From positions 1 to 59,304 of IMG/VR virus record IMGVR_UViG_3300037264_003947: a stretch of DNA of 59,304 nt. One strand, written 5' to 3'. Shown here in pieces: positions 16,848 to 22,996 of this stretch. How positions within the stretch are numbered: position 1 is the stretch's first letter; the number at the start of each line of letters is the position of its first letter. Both the position numbers and the translations under genes were made by a program. Below the pieces are notes generated by a model. That model saw only the letters and a list, made by a program, of their open reading frames with translations. It did not search any database and was not told the DNA's origin. This DNA comes from a virus.

Positions 16848-18440
16848 CTAGAGATTTCCATTTGCGATCATCTGGATAAATCGTGGAGTCTCAGAGGAGA
16901 AACCAGCGATATCGTAGGACTTGTTATCCTTTGGATCGCTCAAAGAACTTCTATCGGAATAAGGAGTAAGAACAACGTAGATGATTTTCGCATCAGCGTT
17001 AATCGTGTCCCTATACTTCTTCATCAAGGTAACAGGTTGCTTGCCCTGCCAGTTCTGTCCATCAGTCCAAATCACAAGGTTATCAGCCTTGAGCTTGTTG
17101 TCGATGGCAAACTGAATTGCACTTTCAACGTCAGTTCCAGCAGGAGTCATTGGCATGAAGCCACGGCTCAAAGCTTCCTTGAAAGAGGTCGTCTTTCGAA
17201 GCTTTGGAAAATCGCTCGTTGTGGTCGTAAAGGCAGAAGTAAAGTAATACTTCTCTGCCTTGATCGTAGCAAGAGCCATGATCGTAGCGACCTCGGAAGG
17301 TGTCATCCACATCGTCTCCAAAGGAGCAGTCTGCATAGAGCCAGAAACGTCGATTGAATGATAGAATACCTTGTTGGTTGGCTCAAGAGCAGTGAAAGCC
17401 TCTTCAACCGCCTTCTCAAGAATATCCTCGACAACTGGATGAGCAACCCAAGTCAACTGAGAACGACCAAGAGTTCCACTAGCAGAGTAAATCTTGTAGG
17501 CAGAAACGATGTTGATAGGGTGAACCCTACCCTTCACCAATCTCTCTTTCGTGAACTTCTCTTCAAGAACCTTGAGGTTCTCAATGTTGGTGAAAATACC
17601 CTTGTTAGTCAAATTGGCCAAGTTACGCAAAGTAGCCGTAATAGGCATCTTGGTGAAAAGAGCTTCCCAAATACCCTTGGTTCGTGCTACGTTTGCTGGA
17701 ATCATTTCCTGAGTCAAACCGAAATCAAGGATTGCCTTGATGACATCTGCCTCTTTCATATTTCCAGTCTTGAGAGACTCATAAATCCCGATGAGAGGAA
17801 GAGTCTCAATAGAAGCCTTCTTATCAGCCATCCAAGCAAACAGATTGCTTTCGGATGCATCCCGTGGAACTGGCTTGATCTTCCGAAGAACATCACGACC
17901 AGCCCAATTGTATCTGCTCTGATACTTGAGGAACTGATACTCAAGGCCCTTTACATCATGAGACGTAATCCACTTCTCGACTGCGGAATGAATAAGTCTA
18001 CCAAAGCCACGAAGGCCCTTGGTATACTCAAGGAACTCATAAAGGTGAGAAGCGGTTCTCACAATCTTATTGAAGATCTGTGAGAAATAAACCTTTGCAT
18101 CAATACCTCCCATAGAGAGATAAACAAGAGCAAGCAAAGGCGTGTGGTTATTGATTCCATGATCACTTGCGTAAACGATTTCGTCCGCAACGACCTTTGG
18201 ATCTTTTGCAACCATGCAGGAAAGAATCTTGACGTTTTCAGTCGTCAACTCTTCCTTACCCTGATAGAAAAGGTTATTCTCAGAGCCAGTCAAGAGCCAG
18301 CGTCTAAGAGCCGTGAGGTCATCGGCCACGAAAGCCTTACCCCCAGCCATGTTCTCAGTCATTTCAGCCTCTCGGCCAGGAATAACCTGAGTAGCAAGAA
18401 CATCCTTCTTCTTTGTGTGGAACGTGTAGCCAGACTTCAT
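16848..18440 (-). CDS. rsr: Ro60/Rsr (TROVE) RNA-binding protein
   Basis: The 530-residue protein is a ring-shaped RNA-binding protein of the Ro60 family. The TROVE part (about residues 1-340) consists of helical repeats, with a characteristic start (QVIPGREAEMTENMAGGKAF), an arginine-containing RALLTGSE-like element seen as LRRWLLTGSENNLFYQG, and LRGFGRLIHSAVEKW. The C-terminal von Willebrand A domain has an intact metal site: DVSGSM at about residue 363, then PAGTDVESAI and IWTDGQNW. In bacteria Ro60 partners with Y RNAs, and with exonucleases, in RNA decay and stress. Six Y RNA-like units lie directly upstream on the same strand, so gene and RNAs are likely one system driven by the promoter at 19410-19438. 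Confidence 0.92.
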   Translation of the reverse strand: MKSGYTFHTKKKDVLATQVIPGREAEMTENMAGGKAFVADDLTALRRWLLTGSENNLFYQGKEELTTENVKILSCMVAKDPKVVADEIVYASDHGINNHTPLLALVYLSMGGIDAKVYFSQIFNKIVRTASHLYEFLEYTKGLRGFGRLIHSAVEKWITSHDVKGLEYQFLKYQSRYNWAGRDVLRKIKPVPRDASESNLFAWMADKKASIETLPLIGIYESLKTGNMKEADVIKAILDFGLTQEMIPANVARTKGIWEALFTKMPITATLRNLANLTNKGIFTNIENLKVLEEKFTKERLVKGRVHPINIVSAYKIYSASGTLGRSQLTWVAHPVVEDILEKAVEEAFTALEPTNKVFYHSIDVSGSMQTAPLETMWMTPSEVATIMALATIKAEKYYFTSAFTTTTSDFPKLRKTTSFKEALSRGFMPMTPAGTDVESAIQFAIDNKLKADNLVIWTDGQNWQGKQPVTLMKKYRDTINADAKIIYVVLTPYSDRSSLSDPKDNKSYDIAGFSSETPRFIQMIANGNL

Positions 18441-18514
18441 TTTCAGCTACCTCCTTGATAGAATTTGTGAGATAATTATACTAAATTTTTTGTTTTTTGT
18501 AAAGAGAAAACAGG

Positions 18515-18570
18515 GAACAAGTTTTTATCCAAAGGCTGCTTTTTCATAGTTAACCTTTAGAATTCAGTTC
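18515..18570 (-). ncRNA. Y RNA-like unit 6 (short)
   Basis: The unit starts GAACTGA and ends CTTGTTC, whose outer four bases pair (GAAC/GUUC). An inner helix CTAAAGG/CCTTTGG closes a loop beginning GTTAAC. It is the last unit before the Ro60 start at 18440 and carries no tRNA-like module. Confidence 0.5.
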
Positions 18571-18605
18571 TCTTTATTTAAGCAAAAAAAGTGCGGGAAC
18601 CAGGG

Positions 18606-18755
18606 CAACAAGAAAACGAATAATGATAAGCTTCATGATGATGGATGAATCTTATATCATTGCTGCTTTTTAAACCATGAAAAAGACTAGCGAAAACATA
18701 TCCTTAAATGCATCATTGGCTTCTAATGAATTTGTTAACGTCTTCTAGTCAGTTC
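18606..18755 (-). ncRNA. Y RNA-like unit 5 (long)
   Basis: The unit starts GAACTGA and ends CTTGTTG, a one-base departure from the other 3' elements. An inner helix AGAAGACG/CGTTTTCT closes a loop of about 120 bases starting GTTAAC. The loop contains no clear tRNA arms and no convincing reading frame. Confidence 0.5.
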
Positions 18756-18777
18756 CCGCTAAAGTTTCAAAGAAAAC

Positions 18778-18837
18778 GAACAAGAAATTGTCGATAGGCA
18801 CTAACTTTACAAATGTTAACCTAAAGACGAGCAGTTC
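18778..18837 (-). ncRNA. Y RNA-like unit 4 (short)
   Basis: The unit starts GAACTGC (TGC where the others have TGA) and ends CTTGTTC. An inner helix formed by GTC..TAGG and CCTA..GAC closes a small loop that starts GTTAAC. It follows tRNA-Gly directly. Confidence 0.5.
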
Positions 18838-18841
18838 GTTA

Positions 18842-18912
18842 AGCGACCAACGGGAGTCGGACCCGTTTGTAAACCTTGGCAAGGTTTCATAATACCGTTA
18901 TATCATGGTCGC
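18842..18912 (-). tRNA. tRNA-Gly (anticodon GCC)
   Basis: The acceptor GCGACCA pairs with TGGTCGC. The anticodon arm AAACC-TTGCCAA-GGTTT and the T-arm ACGGGTCCGACTCCCGT are complete. It is the only ordinary linear tRNA inside the Y RNA-like array and probably shares its transcript. Confidence 0.88.
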
Positions 18913-18961
18913 AAAAAAAGGGCAAGACTTGTATTTGGCAAAACAACCACTATAGGGAAAG

Positions 18962-19037
18962 TGGGCGAAGGATTCGAGCCTTCTATAAATTTTGGTTAGA
19001 AAATTTAATTATCCAGGTAACCAAATATCTTCAGCCC
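18962..19037 (-). tRNA. Degenerate tRNA-like element, identity unclear
   Basis: A perfect T-arm GAAGG-CTCGAAT-CCTTC is present, and GGGC at the 5' side can pair with GCCC at the 3' side. The middle instead forms a strong hairpin TTGGTTA/TAACCAA, and the anticodon loop has an even number of bases if its stem is fully paired. It is either a decayed tRNA or another tRNA-mimic RNA. Confidence 0.35.
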
Positions 19038-19056
19038 TATTATTTTCAAAGAAAAA

Positions 19057-19152
19057 GAACAAGGTTTAATAAGAAGTATGCCCCCACTGGGCTTCCCCCA
19101 CGAAGCGGGGGAAAGAAGATTCGAACTTTTGATAACTTCTCATTATCAGTTC
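19057..19152 (-). ncRNA. Y RNA-like unit 3 with permuted tRNA-like domain
   Basis: The unit starts GAACTGA and ends CTTGTTC. Its long stem is formed by TAATGAGAAGT and ACTTCTTATTA (11 pairs). Inside, in order, are a T-arm (AAAAG-TTCGAAT-CTTCT), a closed acceptor-like stem TTCCCCC/GGGGGAA with loop GCTTCGT, and a D-arm GCCC-AGTGG-GGGC. This is a tRNA cloverleaf opened at the anticodon arm instead of the acceptor end, the architecture described for YrlA-type Y RNAs. Function as a Ro60-bound tRNA mimic is inference. Confidence 0.65.
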
Positions 19153-19172
19153 TTTTTTAATTTCAAAATGGT

Positions 19173-19299
19173 GAACAAGTATTTAGAAAAGGATGTTTTA
19201 GTGCTCTATCCACTAAGCTACCAGCCCACGAAATGGGCTGAGTGAGAATCGAACTCACGACCACTCAATTGTATTTGATAACCCTTCTCAAGTCAACTC
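19173..19299 (-). ncRNA. Y RNA-like unit 2 with permuted tRNA-like domain
   Basis: The unit starts GAGTTGA (GAGU still pairs with GUUC through wobble pairs) and ends CTTGTTC. The stem GAGAAGG/CCTTTTC leads to a perfect T-arm GTGAG-TTCGATT-CTCAC. Then comes the 3' acceptor strand TCAGCCC, a linker ATTTCGT, the 5' acceptor strand GGGCTGG, and a canonical D-arm GCTTAGTGGATAGAGC. The 3' tRNA half thus precedes the 5' half. The linker is nearly the same as in unit 3. Confidence 0.65.
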
Positions 19300-19320
19300 A
19301 CCTTAATTATCAAAGAAAAG

Positions 19321-19398
19321 GAACAAGTATTTGAAAGACGATATTGCCCGAAGGCAGTTAATTTGCTGATAATTATGATAACGCCTCTCTGTCAGTTC
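19321..19398 (-). ncRNA. Y RNA-like unit 1
   Basis: This is the first unit after the promoter. It starts GAACTGA and ends CTTGTTC, with an inner helix GAGAGGCG/CGTCTTTC and a terminal hairpin TGCC-TTCG-GGCA. The segment after the first helix begins GTTATC, as in units 2 and 3. No tRNA arms are seen. Confidence 0.55.
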
Positions 19399-19409
19399 CT
19401 TATAAAACT

Positions 19410-19438
19410 ATCTTATCACTTCGATCGAATTCTGTCAA
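19410..19438 (-). promoter_or_regulatory. Sigma-70-type promoter of the RNA array
   Basis: TTGACA (19438-19433), a spacer of exactly 17 bases, then TAAGAT (19415-19410) match the housekeeping consensus closely. The start of transcription would fall near 19403, just ahead of unit 1, and the transcript could run through the array into the Ro60 gene. It implies transcription by the host holoenzyme early in infection. Confidence 0.75.
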
Positions 19439-19440
19439 GT

Positions 19441-20283
19441 CTACAAAGACAAAAACCACATTGGGTCTACCGTCTTTTCTCCAAAGTGAATTTCGTAATG
19501 AAGATGACAACCAGTCACTTCTCCACTAGAGCCCATAAGACCTACCACATCACCTTGCTTTACGACTTGACCTGATTTTGCTTTTATCTCGCTAAGGTGA
19601 GCGTACCAAGTCTCAAATCCTAACTCATGCTTAACTATAACTACCATACCATAAGTAGGATTTTCATATTCTACATAGGCCACAGTTCCATTCGCCGTTG
19701 CCTGTATTTCATCACCGAGCTTACCAACTAAATCAATTCCAGGATGGAACCTTAACTTGTCTTTATCTGCTACGAATAATCCCTCCCTAAATCCATACGC
19801 AGAAGATAATTTAACGGTTCCACTAGTTTTTACAGGATAGATGAAAGGTGACTCTTTAAAGTACCTATTAAAAATAACTACTCTATCCTTCAGTCCATAC
19901 AAAGAATCTAACAATTCTTTGTAAGAGTTGTATGCTTGCGTAGCATACTTAACGGTCATTTCGTCTGACCCATTAATTGCTGGTTCTAAGGAAGTTCCAC
20001 CTACAGGCATATTGGTGAAGAACATCAAATCAGCAATTTGTTTTACTACTGTCCTATAGCTCTCTTGTGTTTTGTAAGTATCGAAAACAATCTTTTTCCA
20101 CTTATCATTTTCTTCTTTTAATTGTGCATTCTCAACTTTTAATACTTCAATTTCGGCATTAACACTTGCTTGTGATACTGTTTTTCTAAACCCGAAAAAG
20201 AGGCCCAAGGCTATAATAGGAATCAACAAAAAAATAGCGAAATTCTTATTCAGCCTAAAGCCACGCTTAGGTTTCTTCTTCAT
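19441..20283 (-). CDS. M23 family metallopeptidase, membrane anchored
   Basis: The 280-residue protein has a basic N-terminus, a transmembrane helix (FAIFLLIPIIALGLFFGF, about residues 15-32), a coiled coil, and a C-terminal LytM domain. Zinc ligands are visible in FHPGIDLVG and CHLHYEIHFG, with HELGFETWYAHL supplying the third catalytic His. Such enzymes cut peptide cross-links in peptidoglycan. The anchor and coiled coil resemble host cell-wall hydrolases, so entry, lysis or envelope control are all possible. The stop lies at the promoter of the RNA array. Confidence 0.85.
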   Translation of the reverse strand: MKKKPKRGFRLNKNFAIFLLIPIIALGLFFGFRKTVSQASVNAEIEVLKVENAQLKEENDKWKKIVFDTYKTQESYRTVVKQIADLMFFTNMPVGGTSLEPAINGSDEMTVKYATQAYNSYKELLDSLYGLKDRVVIFNRYFKESPFIYPVKTSGTVKLSSAYGFREGLFVADKDKLRFHPGIDLVGKLGDEIQATANGTVAYVEYENPTYGMVVIVKHELGFETWYAHLSEIKAKSGQVVKQGDVVGLMGSSGEVTGCHLHYEIHFGEKTVDPMWFLSL

Positions 20284-20329
20284 TCACACTCCTTCCACTA
20301 TTAAAGAGCTAAAGATATATAGTTAAATT

Positions 20330-20522
20330 TGGACCAGACGGGAATTGAACCCGTGTCTCCAGTGTATCCGCTTGGGATCTGGATCGACTTCAAGCACTGG
20401 CCCCATTGCTTGTTAAAAAATGCCGTTTTTTTGATACTACCTAGAATAGAGAGGAACGGCAAAACTCAGTTCTAGGAGCAGACCGCAGTTAAGCGGCGAA
20501 AGCTGTTTTGGCTTCTTGTATT
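20330..20522 (-). ncRNA. tmRNA-like RNA: tag-like frame, pseudoknot and tRNA-like domain
   Basis: Read on the minus strand, the transcript first shows a short frame ending A-K-T-A-F-A-A-stop, like tmRNA tag peptides, with the stop in a CCGC/GCGG hairpin. Next is an H-type pseudoknot (CCTAGAA/TTCTAGG interleaved with TGCCGTT/AACGGCA). Last is a tRNA-like domain with acceptor GGGCCAG/CTGGTCC, a D-region lacking a stem (GAAGTCGA), a TCCAG/CTGGA helix, a GAC linker and the T-arm ACGGG-TTCAATT-CCCGT. All pieces resemble tmRNA, but the tag part lies before the tRNA-like part rather than inside it. A plain odd tRNA with an unrelated leader is the alternative. Confidence 0.5.
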
Positions 20523-20524
20523 AT

Positions 20525-20553
20525 ACTTTACCAGAAGCGTTAATTCGTGTCAA
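20525..20553 (-). promoter_or_regulatory. Sigma-70-type promoter of the tmRNA-like RNA
   Basis: TTGACA (20553-20548), 17 bases, then TAAAGT (20530-20525), with TATAAT overlapping it downstream. The spacing and -35 are the same as at 19410-19438. Initiation is expected near 20518, immediately before the tag-like frame. Confidence 0.65.
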
Positions 20554-20559
20554 GTAAAA

Positions 20560-21303
20560 CTATGCCTTAAGGGCTGGAAGTGCTGCTTTTTTACGCAAAG
20601 CATTAATTTTTTCATTATTTTTATCTGCGTAAGTCTTTAAAGCCACTTCTTCTTCGGAGGACATCTTTCTCTTTCTTACTCTATTCATAAGTTTTTTAGC
20701 CGCTACTACTCCACCAGTTATTAATAGAGCAGGAAGCATTACTTTAGCCCAAGGAGTTTTGCTGAACCAAGCTAGACCTTGCTGTGCTAGTCCCTTTGCC
20801 CAAGCAAAACCTTGCTTTAGGAAAGGAACTATAGGACCAAAGATTGCCCGACCCAATGACTTCAATTTTTCCCAAGCTCCAGTAATTATGTTGCCCATTT
20901 TAAATTGCCCAGCCATTGAAGATCTAGCTGCCATATTAGCTGGAGAATCTGCTTTAGTCCACCATAATCTATCTAGTCCTTTGGTGAACTTTACATCTGG
21001 ATAAGGGAATTTTTCTACAAGAAGATTATTAATTTCTTTTTCTGCATAACCTTCAAAAAGAAGAGGTGATTTAAGCTCGGAAAATTCCTGTAGTGTTTCA
21101 ATATCTTGGTTTACAAGAAATTCATAAAGTTCTTTTCCAGCTTCACCATATACTTCTGTATAACCTTCTACTACGGCCTTGTTTCCAAAAGCTTTTATTT
21201 CATTAGGGAGATTTTTTATAATATTGCTAAGTATATAATTCTCCCAGAACCAGTCGCCCTTATATCTAAAGGCTTCCTTTAGCAATTCTTCTCTGATTTC
21301 CAT
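20560..21303 (-). CDS. Unknown protein with a hydrophobic segment
   Basis: The 247-residue protein has a helical acidic N-terminal half (EEALKEAFRYKGDWFWEN-like composition), a Trp/Gly-rich middle (FAWAKGLAQQGLAWFSKTPW), a membrane-spanning candidate VMLPALLITGGVVAA, and a basic tail. It overlaps the DUF5661-like gene by one base. A virion-internal or membrane-interacting role is possible; no family is recognised. Confidence 0.6.
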   Translation of the reverse strand: MEIREELLKEAFRYKGDWFWENYILSNIIKNLPNEIKAFGNKAVVEGYTEVYGEAGKELYEFLVNQDIETLQEFSELKSPLLFEGYAEKEINNLLVEKFPYPDVKFTKGLDRLWWTKADSPANMAARSSMAGQFKMGNIITGAWEKLKSLGRAIFGPIVPFLKQGFAWAKGLAQQGLAWFSKTPWAKVMLPALLITGGVVAAKKLMNRVRKRKMSSEEEVALKTYADKNNEKINALRKKAALPALKA

Positions 21304-22375: not shown

Positions 22376-22996
22376 TCATTTCTCCATTTTATTAGCTAGT
22401 CTGGGGTATACATTTTTCAATCCCAAATTTTTGACCGCTGTTATATTCTTTGCATCATCGTCGATAAAAACTATTCTATCATAATCTTTAGCTAATTTCT
22501 GTATTACATTAGCTTTCTTTTCAAAGTCAGTTTTGCCTTCGTATTTCTTTTTGTCATCATTTACAGCATGAACTAAATCTCTAACTAGCTTATCTCCTAG
22601 TAAATTTAAATCGCCAGAGGCATCTCTGTGCTTCAACCAATCTTTTATGGAATTATAAACTAAATCTTCCATTCCTCTTGCTGTAAGAATTCCTATTTTC
22701 CATCCTCGCTTAACATATTCATCAAAAATTTTTAGATTAGAAACTATTGGAAGTCCAGTTTGAATTGAATTATAAATTTTCTCTGGGTTTCTAAATTCTC
22801 TATAGTCATAATCCTTTTTAGTTTCAGGTGTTATTTTTTCTCTAGAGTATTCAGCAGGAGTTAATCCTACTTCTCCTTGAGGAGTTTTCTTATAGATTTT
22901 TATATTTTGAGGAACTACTAGAGTGTCATCTATGTCGAGGAGTAATAAACTTTGTCCTTTGTCTTCTAGTAAATCTAGAACTTCAGAAAATTTCAT
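22376..22996 (-). CDS. HAD-like phosphatase with capsid-targeting-like N-terminus
   Basis: The 206-residue protein begins MKFSEVLDLLED and then shows HAD motif I LLLLDIDDTLVV, motif II ILTARG, a lysine region and motif III FIDDDAKNI. The catalytic Asp pair (DIDDT) is intact. Enzymes of this shape remove phosphate from nucleotides or nucleic-acid ends (the C-terminal half of T4 Pnkp is one case). The N-terminus suggests that it may be carried inside the capsid. Confidence 0.78.
   Translation of the reverse strand: MKFSEVLDLLEDKGQSLLLLDIDDTLVVPQNIKIYKKTPQGEVGLTPAEYSREKITPETKKDYDYREFRNPEKIYNSIQTGLPIVSNLKIFDEYVKRGWKIGILTARGMEDLVYNSIKDWLKHRDASGDLNLLGDKLVRDLVHAVNDDKKKYEGKTDFEKKANVIQKLAKDYDRIVFIDDDAKNITAVKNLGLKNVYPRLANKMEK

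Follow-up and report, generated by a model that had tools for sequence, protein, structure and literature searches.

YrlA RNAs (Rfam RF02553; structure PDB 6CU1) combine a T-acceptor-D domain, whose circular permutation relative to transfer RNA (tRNA) is reported in PMC11472068, with a long terminal stem and a Ro60/Rsr gene lying alongside. According to PMC8394870, YrlA, which tethers Rsr to PNPase, joins a stem that binds Ro60 to a tRNA-like domain that DusA and TruB modify. Moreover, the Ro-like loci of mycobacteriophages and other phages join a Ro60-like protein to a nearby YrlA-like RNA; PMC12282133 cites Chen 2014 for Y RNAs in mycobacteriophages and itself proposes that the small RNAs strongly transcribed ahead of an Rsr-like protein in Listeria phage CKA15/P100 are Y RNAs. 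Here, positions 1 to 59,304 of the IMG/VR virus record IMGVR_UViG_3300037264_003947 were analysed (the window, 59,304 nucleotides), in which a first-pass annotation made from the sequence alone had described two neighbouring permuted tRNA-like domains. These domains, named units B and C, are two members of a Y-RNA-like array on the minus strand, directly upstream of a Ro60 gene. The feature is identified with high confidence as a Ro60/Y RNA locus with a YrlA-type mimic, and the whole is quite likely a phage-encoded Ro60 ribonucleoprotein locus, made up of the Ro60 gene and a tandem Y RNA array upstream on the same strand, with unit B as the YrlA-type mimic. The anatomy of the units, the array, the Ro60 gene, the covariation in relatives and the two circular orders are directly supported. 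YrlA mimics beside Ro60 in phages are of an already known kind, and what is new here is the long array with graded mimicry. Unlike YrlA, the window has a long array of full, reduced, half and absent tRNA modules; unlike the Ro-like loci of mycobacteriophages and other phages, it comes from an uncultivated phage and its Ro60 belongs to a different clade. The locus links this uncultivated phage to the Ro60/Y RNA system and shows that phages carry entire Y RNA sets alongside a single ring protein.

The Ro60 gene and its Y RNA array

The Ro60 gene (16848-18440, minus strand) encodes 530 amino acids and matched the Pfam families vWA_Ro60 (5.8e-26) and TROVE (8.3e-23), PHROG 850 and the PDB profiles of Ro60 (1yvp, E 2.5e-87) and Rsr (2nvo, E 6.9e-73). 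The residues of the metal ion-dependent adhesion site (MIDAS), D364-x-S366-x-S368 and D460, were invariant in five relatives of the protein alignment, from which locus L007 was dropped for its broken frame. A TROVE HEAT-repeat ring and a vWA domain with MIDAS, by which Ro60/Rsr proteins are recognized, are predicted for the product, and the sequence match is decisive in identifying the gene. Ro60-like proteins appeared in 361 of 50,697 phage records, several of those fetched sitting amid tRNA genes, and the window protein had at most 31% identity to the Ro60 proteins of the phage records listed. A first genome scan with a profile of the window clade found no relative, and the Ro60 relatives in viral contigs had Y-type arrays upstream of the gene.

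The array holds five clear Y-RNA-like units, probably seven in all. The common Ro60-type stem consists of an outer helix, an internal loop (TGA/ACTT) and an inner helix, followed by GTTATC, and the module at the far end varies. A first descriptor of this stem (outer helix, TG[ACT], inner helix, TTANC, and CTT ahead of the outer helix) found units A, B, C, D and G in 18430-19460, compared with a mean of 0.03 and a maximum of 1 in 100 shuffles, and, with the threshold set to 12, scanning both strands of the entire window added a single site (37921-37796), opposite a coding frame. All units lie on the minus strand. Unit A (19318-19401, descriptor score 14) has a Y stem of 7+8 bp and the motif GTTATC, without a tRNA-like module, and unit B (19170-19302), identified by the Rfam YrlA model, the Y-stem descriptor and an arm scan, is the full permuted mimic. 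Unit C (19052-19157) was identified by the descriptor, the arm scan and its folding z-score, and unit D (18919-19038), found with the descriptor, is a half-tRNA with a T-arm (18983-18967) and a partial acceptor hairpin (CCACT/AGTGG), lacking a D-arm. The minimal unit G (18515-18570), found in the descriptor scans, has no tRNA-like module. Furthermore, unit E (18775-18840) is probable, with an outer stem of 7 bp and a weak inner stem, and appeared in the relaxed scan only, while unit F (18593-18759) is possible, having been recognized by eye from its ends GCGGGAAC/GTTCCCGC and the motif GTTAAC and missed by both scans. An ordinary tRNA-Gly (GCC) lies between units D and E (18842-18912, minus strand; ARAGORN; Rfam, 53 bits). 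The array shows graded tRNA mimicry, being full in B, reduced in C, limited to the T half in D and absent from the others. No DNA-level relatives of the array were found among phage records beyond a match of the tRNA-Gly to an Aeromonas phage.

Permuted tRNA-like domains of units B and C

The order put forward for both units, with the T-arm and the 3' acceptor strand ahead of a seven-base loop, the 5' acceptor strand and the D-arm, was confirmed in unit B (minus strand, 19302-19170). Its T-arm (19258-19242; GTGAG-TTCGATT-CTCAC) is followed by the 3' acceptor strand (19241-19235), the loop ATTTCGT (19234-19228), the 5' acceptor strand (19227-19221) and, after a TA spacer, the D-arm (19218-19203; GCTT-AGTGGATA-GAGC), and the proposed pairing TCAGCCC/GGGCTGG comprises seven pairs out of seven, six of them Watson-Crick. 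In unit C (minus strand, 19157-19052), the same order was found, with a T-arm of four pairs out of five (19130-19114; AAAAG-TTCGAAT-CTTCT), the 3' acceptor strand (19113-19107), the loop GCTTCGT (19106-19100) and the 5' acceptor strand (19099-19093), the pairing TTCCCCC/GGGGGAA being Watson-Crick at all seven positions. However, a canonical D-arm was not recovered in unit C, where only a shrunken GC hairpin that fails the D-arm test (19092-19080; GCCC-AGTGG-GGGC) occupies its place. The long helix attributed to the unit ends is present in both units as a two-part closing helix (7+9 pairs in B, 9+11 in C), so that the predicted RNAs measure 133 and 106 nt instead of the 127 and 96 first given. 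In dinucleotide shuffles of the 1031-nt region, the permuted T-arm, acceptor and D-arm occurred 3 times per 1000 shuffles, and the T-arm and acceptor alone 23 times. The folding z-scores were -2.46, -4.12 and -2.02 for units B, C and D, respectively.

The best match of unit B was Rfam YrlA (33.7 bits, E 5.5e-5 in 2.2 kb), and the 3' motif ACTTG is similar to the AcUuG found in the Rfam YrlA consensus. The features that define YrlA are found here, namely an adjoining Ro60/Rsr orthologue, a long end stem with a Ro-type internal loop and the permuted T-arm, acceptor and D-arm, which is complete in B. YrlA-type mimicry, as originally suggested, is supported by this match, by the Ro60 gene directly downstream on the same strand and by the acceptor pairing kept in relatives. 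The order scan took in 25 sources (the window, 14 plus 9 loci, and Listeria phage P100) and called a permuted T-acceptor-D domain in 11 of them, although two calls (L006 at 8118 and L030 at 5031) look spurious and were left out of the alignment. Acceptor complementarity in relatives, named beforehand as a point on which the reading turned, was kept with different sequences. In the 15 aligned domains, 99.2% of 240 cells were paired, 14 out of 16 pairs, including every acceptor pair, changed on both sides, and the covariation was 0.921 versus 0.265 in column shuffles, with acceptor counts that lean towards the claim because 13 of the 15 domains were preselected for acceptor pairing (L010 and L015 were added by eye).

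This preselection weighs against the YrlA-type reading, as do the weakness of units E and F, the minimum-energy fold of unit B alone, which retains the outer stem and the acceptor and not the canonical T- and D-arms, and its YrlA score, which at 33.7 bits is below the Rfam gathering score of 69 and sets it apart from YrlA proper. In the rsr-rtcBA operon of Xanthomonas sacchari, taken as a yardstick, the YrlA matches scored 72.1, 61.9, 60.2 and 33.2 bits; since three of these four also fall below the gathering score, the latter serves as a cut-off for searching and does not mark a biological property.

Y units in other phages

The first descriptor found nothing in seven of eight phage isolates because it required CTT on the 3' side, and a looser one was used on 24 Ro60 loci. 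This generic scan yielded 43 sense and 3 antisense Y units compared with a shuffle total of 10.0, and 15 of the 24 loci had at least one unit, some of them plainly chance matches in coding sequence. As in the window, units that have a T-arm and units that lack one occur together in single loci, and so the graded mimicry in an array recurs, for example in Gordonia phage Sixama. Two or more units were also present in Sixama, Vibrio phage BONAISHI and Mycobacterium phage Nappy, the window having the most among the phage loci scanned by one descriptor (five, the next having four). In contrast to the window, the protein of Listeria phage P100 matches DUF7788/DUF2828 and not TROVE, and its RNA repeats carry another motif (by eye).

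Some side observations were made in these loci. Upstream of gp165 of P100 (30150-27080, minus strand), there are a permuted tRNA-like domain (ACGGTTG-CTTCGG-TGACCGT), a ROOL RNA match of 86 bits, below its cut-off of 99.1, and three repeats with the motif ACAGCAATTACTA, recognized by eye; perhaps these are the highly transcribed RNAs of CKA15 described in PMC12282133. Inside two Y arrays (L001, 3340-3560; L006, 4050-4400), a long stretch sharing TATATCT, GGCGAAA and AGACGAA was seen by eye, without an Rfam match, and is perhaps a large structured RNA. Finally, a Pistol ribozyme (L013, 5470-5526; 56.8 bits) lies in the tRNA cluster of Gordonia phage GMA2, beside a transfer-messenger RNA (tmRNA) and a YrlA match.

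An anticodon-like hairpin in relatives

The first-pass annotation had also held that the long helix takes the place of the anticodon arm and that a clear anticodon is lacking. The latter agrees with the window, none of whose units has a passing anticodon loop, but replacement of the arm did not stand as a general rule. Many relatives have, between GTTATC and the T-arm, a 3-bp hairpin with a 7-base loop, U33 and a purine at 37, and it sits 9 or 10 bases ahead of the T-stem, as in tRNA. Of the 34 T-halves preceded by the motif, among which are some chance matches, 15 passed the hairpin test, versus 0.37 expected from shuffled segments, and the loops carry many different anticodons. None of the three T-halves of the window passed: unit B has a 6-base loop (CAA-ATACAA-TTG), which is a shrunken anticodon hairpin, unit C leaves no room, and unit D has TTT-CTAACCA-AAA with C37. 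By eye, two YrlA copies of the Xanthomonas operon and both Nonomuraea copies have such hairpins, and in the Rfam YrlA alignment, whose consensus has none, the Xanthomonas hairpin appears as an insert. No description of an anticodon-like hairpin in YrlA-type RNAs was found among the papers listed by literature searches, although one may already be in print.

Normal-order units in a phage contig and in cyanobacteria

A different order was found in the phage contig L025, where one plain Y RNA precedes three units with the normal succession of 5' acceptor, D-arm, Y stem as a hairpin, T-arm and 3' acceptor. ARAGORN called none of these units, and the Rfam tRNA model found one of them as a 123-base tRNA (49.5 bits). 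After removal of the insert in silico, two of the three became canonical tRNA-Ile(TAT) and tRNA-Gly(TCC); unit 1 gave no canonical tRNA, which argues against every unit holding a simple intron. When viral contigs were scanned for the pattern of the adjacent Y-stem hairpin found in L025, only the L025 contig itself matched, and a search of viral contigs for the cyanobacterial TROVE had no match. Picosynechococcus PCC 7002 shows the same normal order ahead of the TROVE gene of its plasmid pAQ7, and so do cyanobacterial TROVE loci, candidates being present in 25 of the 32 fetched. Moreover, normal-order units with acceptor and T-arm and without a D-arm were observed downstream of two cyanobacterial TROVE genes (L046, 4660-4772; L048, 4683-4785).

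Both orders were compared in a test requiring neither a D-arm nor preselection for acceptor pairing, with upstream and downstream windows of equal length and a score of at least 6. Among 76 T-halves from 25 cyanobacterial loci, the acceptor partner was upstream (normal order) in 59, downstream in none and neither or tied in 17, and all three T-halves of L025 were upstream. On the other hand, 19 of the 30 T-halves from 19 loci of phages and other bacteria were downstream, 10 were neither or tied, and the sole upstream case was unit D of the window (6.0 vs. 5.5). The random background gave 288 downstream and 244 upstream out of 3480. For the alignment, 48 of the 62 normal-order units were used and 14 were dropped; 96.0% of 1274 cells were paired, 23 of 27 pairs changed on both sides and the covariation was 0.625 versus 0.252, counts that lean towards the claim because the units had been chosen partly for acceptor pairing and the Y-stem columns were defined from the same alignment. 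The anticodon hairpin was kept in 22 of these 48 units, compared with 0.67 expected. The hairpin and normal-order classes are assignments from sequence, under which a Y RNA with a tRNA body resembles a tRNA whose anticodon stem has been interrupted, and such RNAs come in two circular arrangements. YrlA would then be seen differently, its tRNA-like part often retaining an anticodon loop and culturable cyanobacteria having a normal-order counterpart.

In a tree of 40 Ro60 proteins, the window clade of six phages (99/99) was sister to the group formed by the cyanobacteria and their sister L025 (100/98), and a single change accounts for both orders; the tree has a midpoint root only, L041 is on a very long branch, and L037 and part of the cyanobacterial loci were left out. 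The simplest reading is that the normal order arose once, by a register change in a tandem array, since the permuted order lies on both sides in the tree. CCA is encoded behind the discriminator position in 13 of 48 normal-order units, and in 4 of 26 permuted T-halves NCCA is buried in the loop behind the acceptor strand; for the deeper past, these buried ends suggest the opposite direction. A broader proposal, offered with reserve, is that tRNA-bodied Y RNAs would be complete tRNAs interrupted between anticodon-stem positions 28 and 29 by the Ro60-binding stem, permuted in YrlA, the window and many phages and bacteria, and in normal order in cyanobacterial TROVE loci, that of pAQ7 among them, and in one phage contig. 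Tandem arrays would let one order turn into the other by register change, and the forms with an anticodon loop would be tRNA decoys held by Ro60, or would even undergo cleavage and religation, RtcB being encoded next to such operons in some bacteria.

Possible function and alternative explanations

In unit B, the anticodon stem of a tRNA would have been opened for insertion of the Y stem and the whole permuted circularly through the acceptor end. Ro60 would bind the Y stem, and the modules may bring it to tRNA-binding or RNA-degrading host factors, by analogy with the tethering of Rsr to PNPase, so that one Ro60 ring could be aimed at several RNA targets during infection. Such an array of tethers is tentatively judged the likeliest mechanism, followed by a decoy function. 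In the latter, which is rather unlikely, tRNA bodies held by Ro60 would act as a sink or sensor for host anticodon nucleases or for signals from tRNA fragments, so that the tRNAs of phage and host are spared during infection. This would suit the hairpin in tRNA register with its many anticodons, enriched in both orders, and the phage Ro60-like proteins found amid tRNA genes; furthermore, PMC7790460 proposes the tRNA-like domain of YrlA as a possible competitive inhibitor of anticodon nuclease. However, the same source reports that no fragments of Salmonella YrlA were seen when tRNAs were cut, the window units lack a passing anticodon loop, and the array includes units without any tRNA part. 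Two questions become testable, namely the origin of the permuted tRNA mimic and whether such RNAs, beyond tethering PNPase, act on the tRNA machinery or on anticodon nucleases.

It is improbable that the array is mainly a structured cis leader controlling Ro60 expression, for instance by Ro60 binding its own upstream RNA. Its position directly upstream of the gene on the same strand, shared by related loci, would fit, but Sixama and GMA2 have most of their Y RNAs downstream of the gene, and a weak promoter-like site (TTTACA-17-TATAAT, 18475-18503, minus strand) separates the array from the Ro60 start. Another weak site (TTGACA-17-TAAGAT, 19410-19438, minus strand) is just ahead of unit A. Six promoter-like sites were found compared with 3.0 (standard deviation 1.7) in shuffles, which makes them weak evidence.

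The alternative first raised, real permuted tRNA genes maturing through a circular intermediate, is very improbable, despite halves in the correct order and good acceptor pairing. Permuted tRNA genes and permuted tmRNAs share with units B and C a 3' half ahead of the 5' half, but no anticodon loop or tag frame was seen in either unit; in particular, both lack an in-register seven-base anticodon loop, ARAGORN is silent on them, and their ends are closed by a helix of 16-20 bp with a Ro60-type internal loop. Permuted tRNA genes are not known outside archaea and algae. A permuted tmRNA was rejected for both units, as Rfam tmRNA_permuted had no match in 18400-20600. Equally implausible are decayed halves of two separate linear tRNAs from a phage tRNA cluster, which could draw on the several ordinary tRNAs of the window, one within the array, and on a weak Rfam tRNA match (21.9 bits) that runs from the D half of unit B into the T half of unit C, but not on the acceptor scores, which were higher within the unit, downstream (6.5 in B, 7.0 in C), than upstream (4.0 in both), nor on the pairing kept across phages despite different sequences.

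Other features of the window

A weak polynucleotide kinase match (PHROG 415, 4.6e-8) was found at 22376-22996 on the minus strand, whose product is possibly an RNA end-processing enzyme in a Ro60-carrying phage. Moreover, at 20560-20330 on the minus strand, a promoter-like TTGACA-TATAAT, recognized by eye, lies ahead of the short frame GCC AAA ACA GCT TTC GCC GCT TAA, which encodes AKTAFAA, like a tmRNA tag. Downstream of this frame, 74 nt form a tRNA-like domain (Rfam tRNA, 29.4 bits) whose ends resemble those of a tmRNA, and ARAGORN calls no tmRNA; this region may be a tmRNA with a displaced tag frame.
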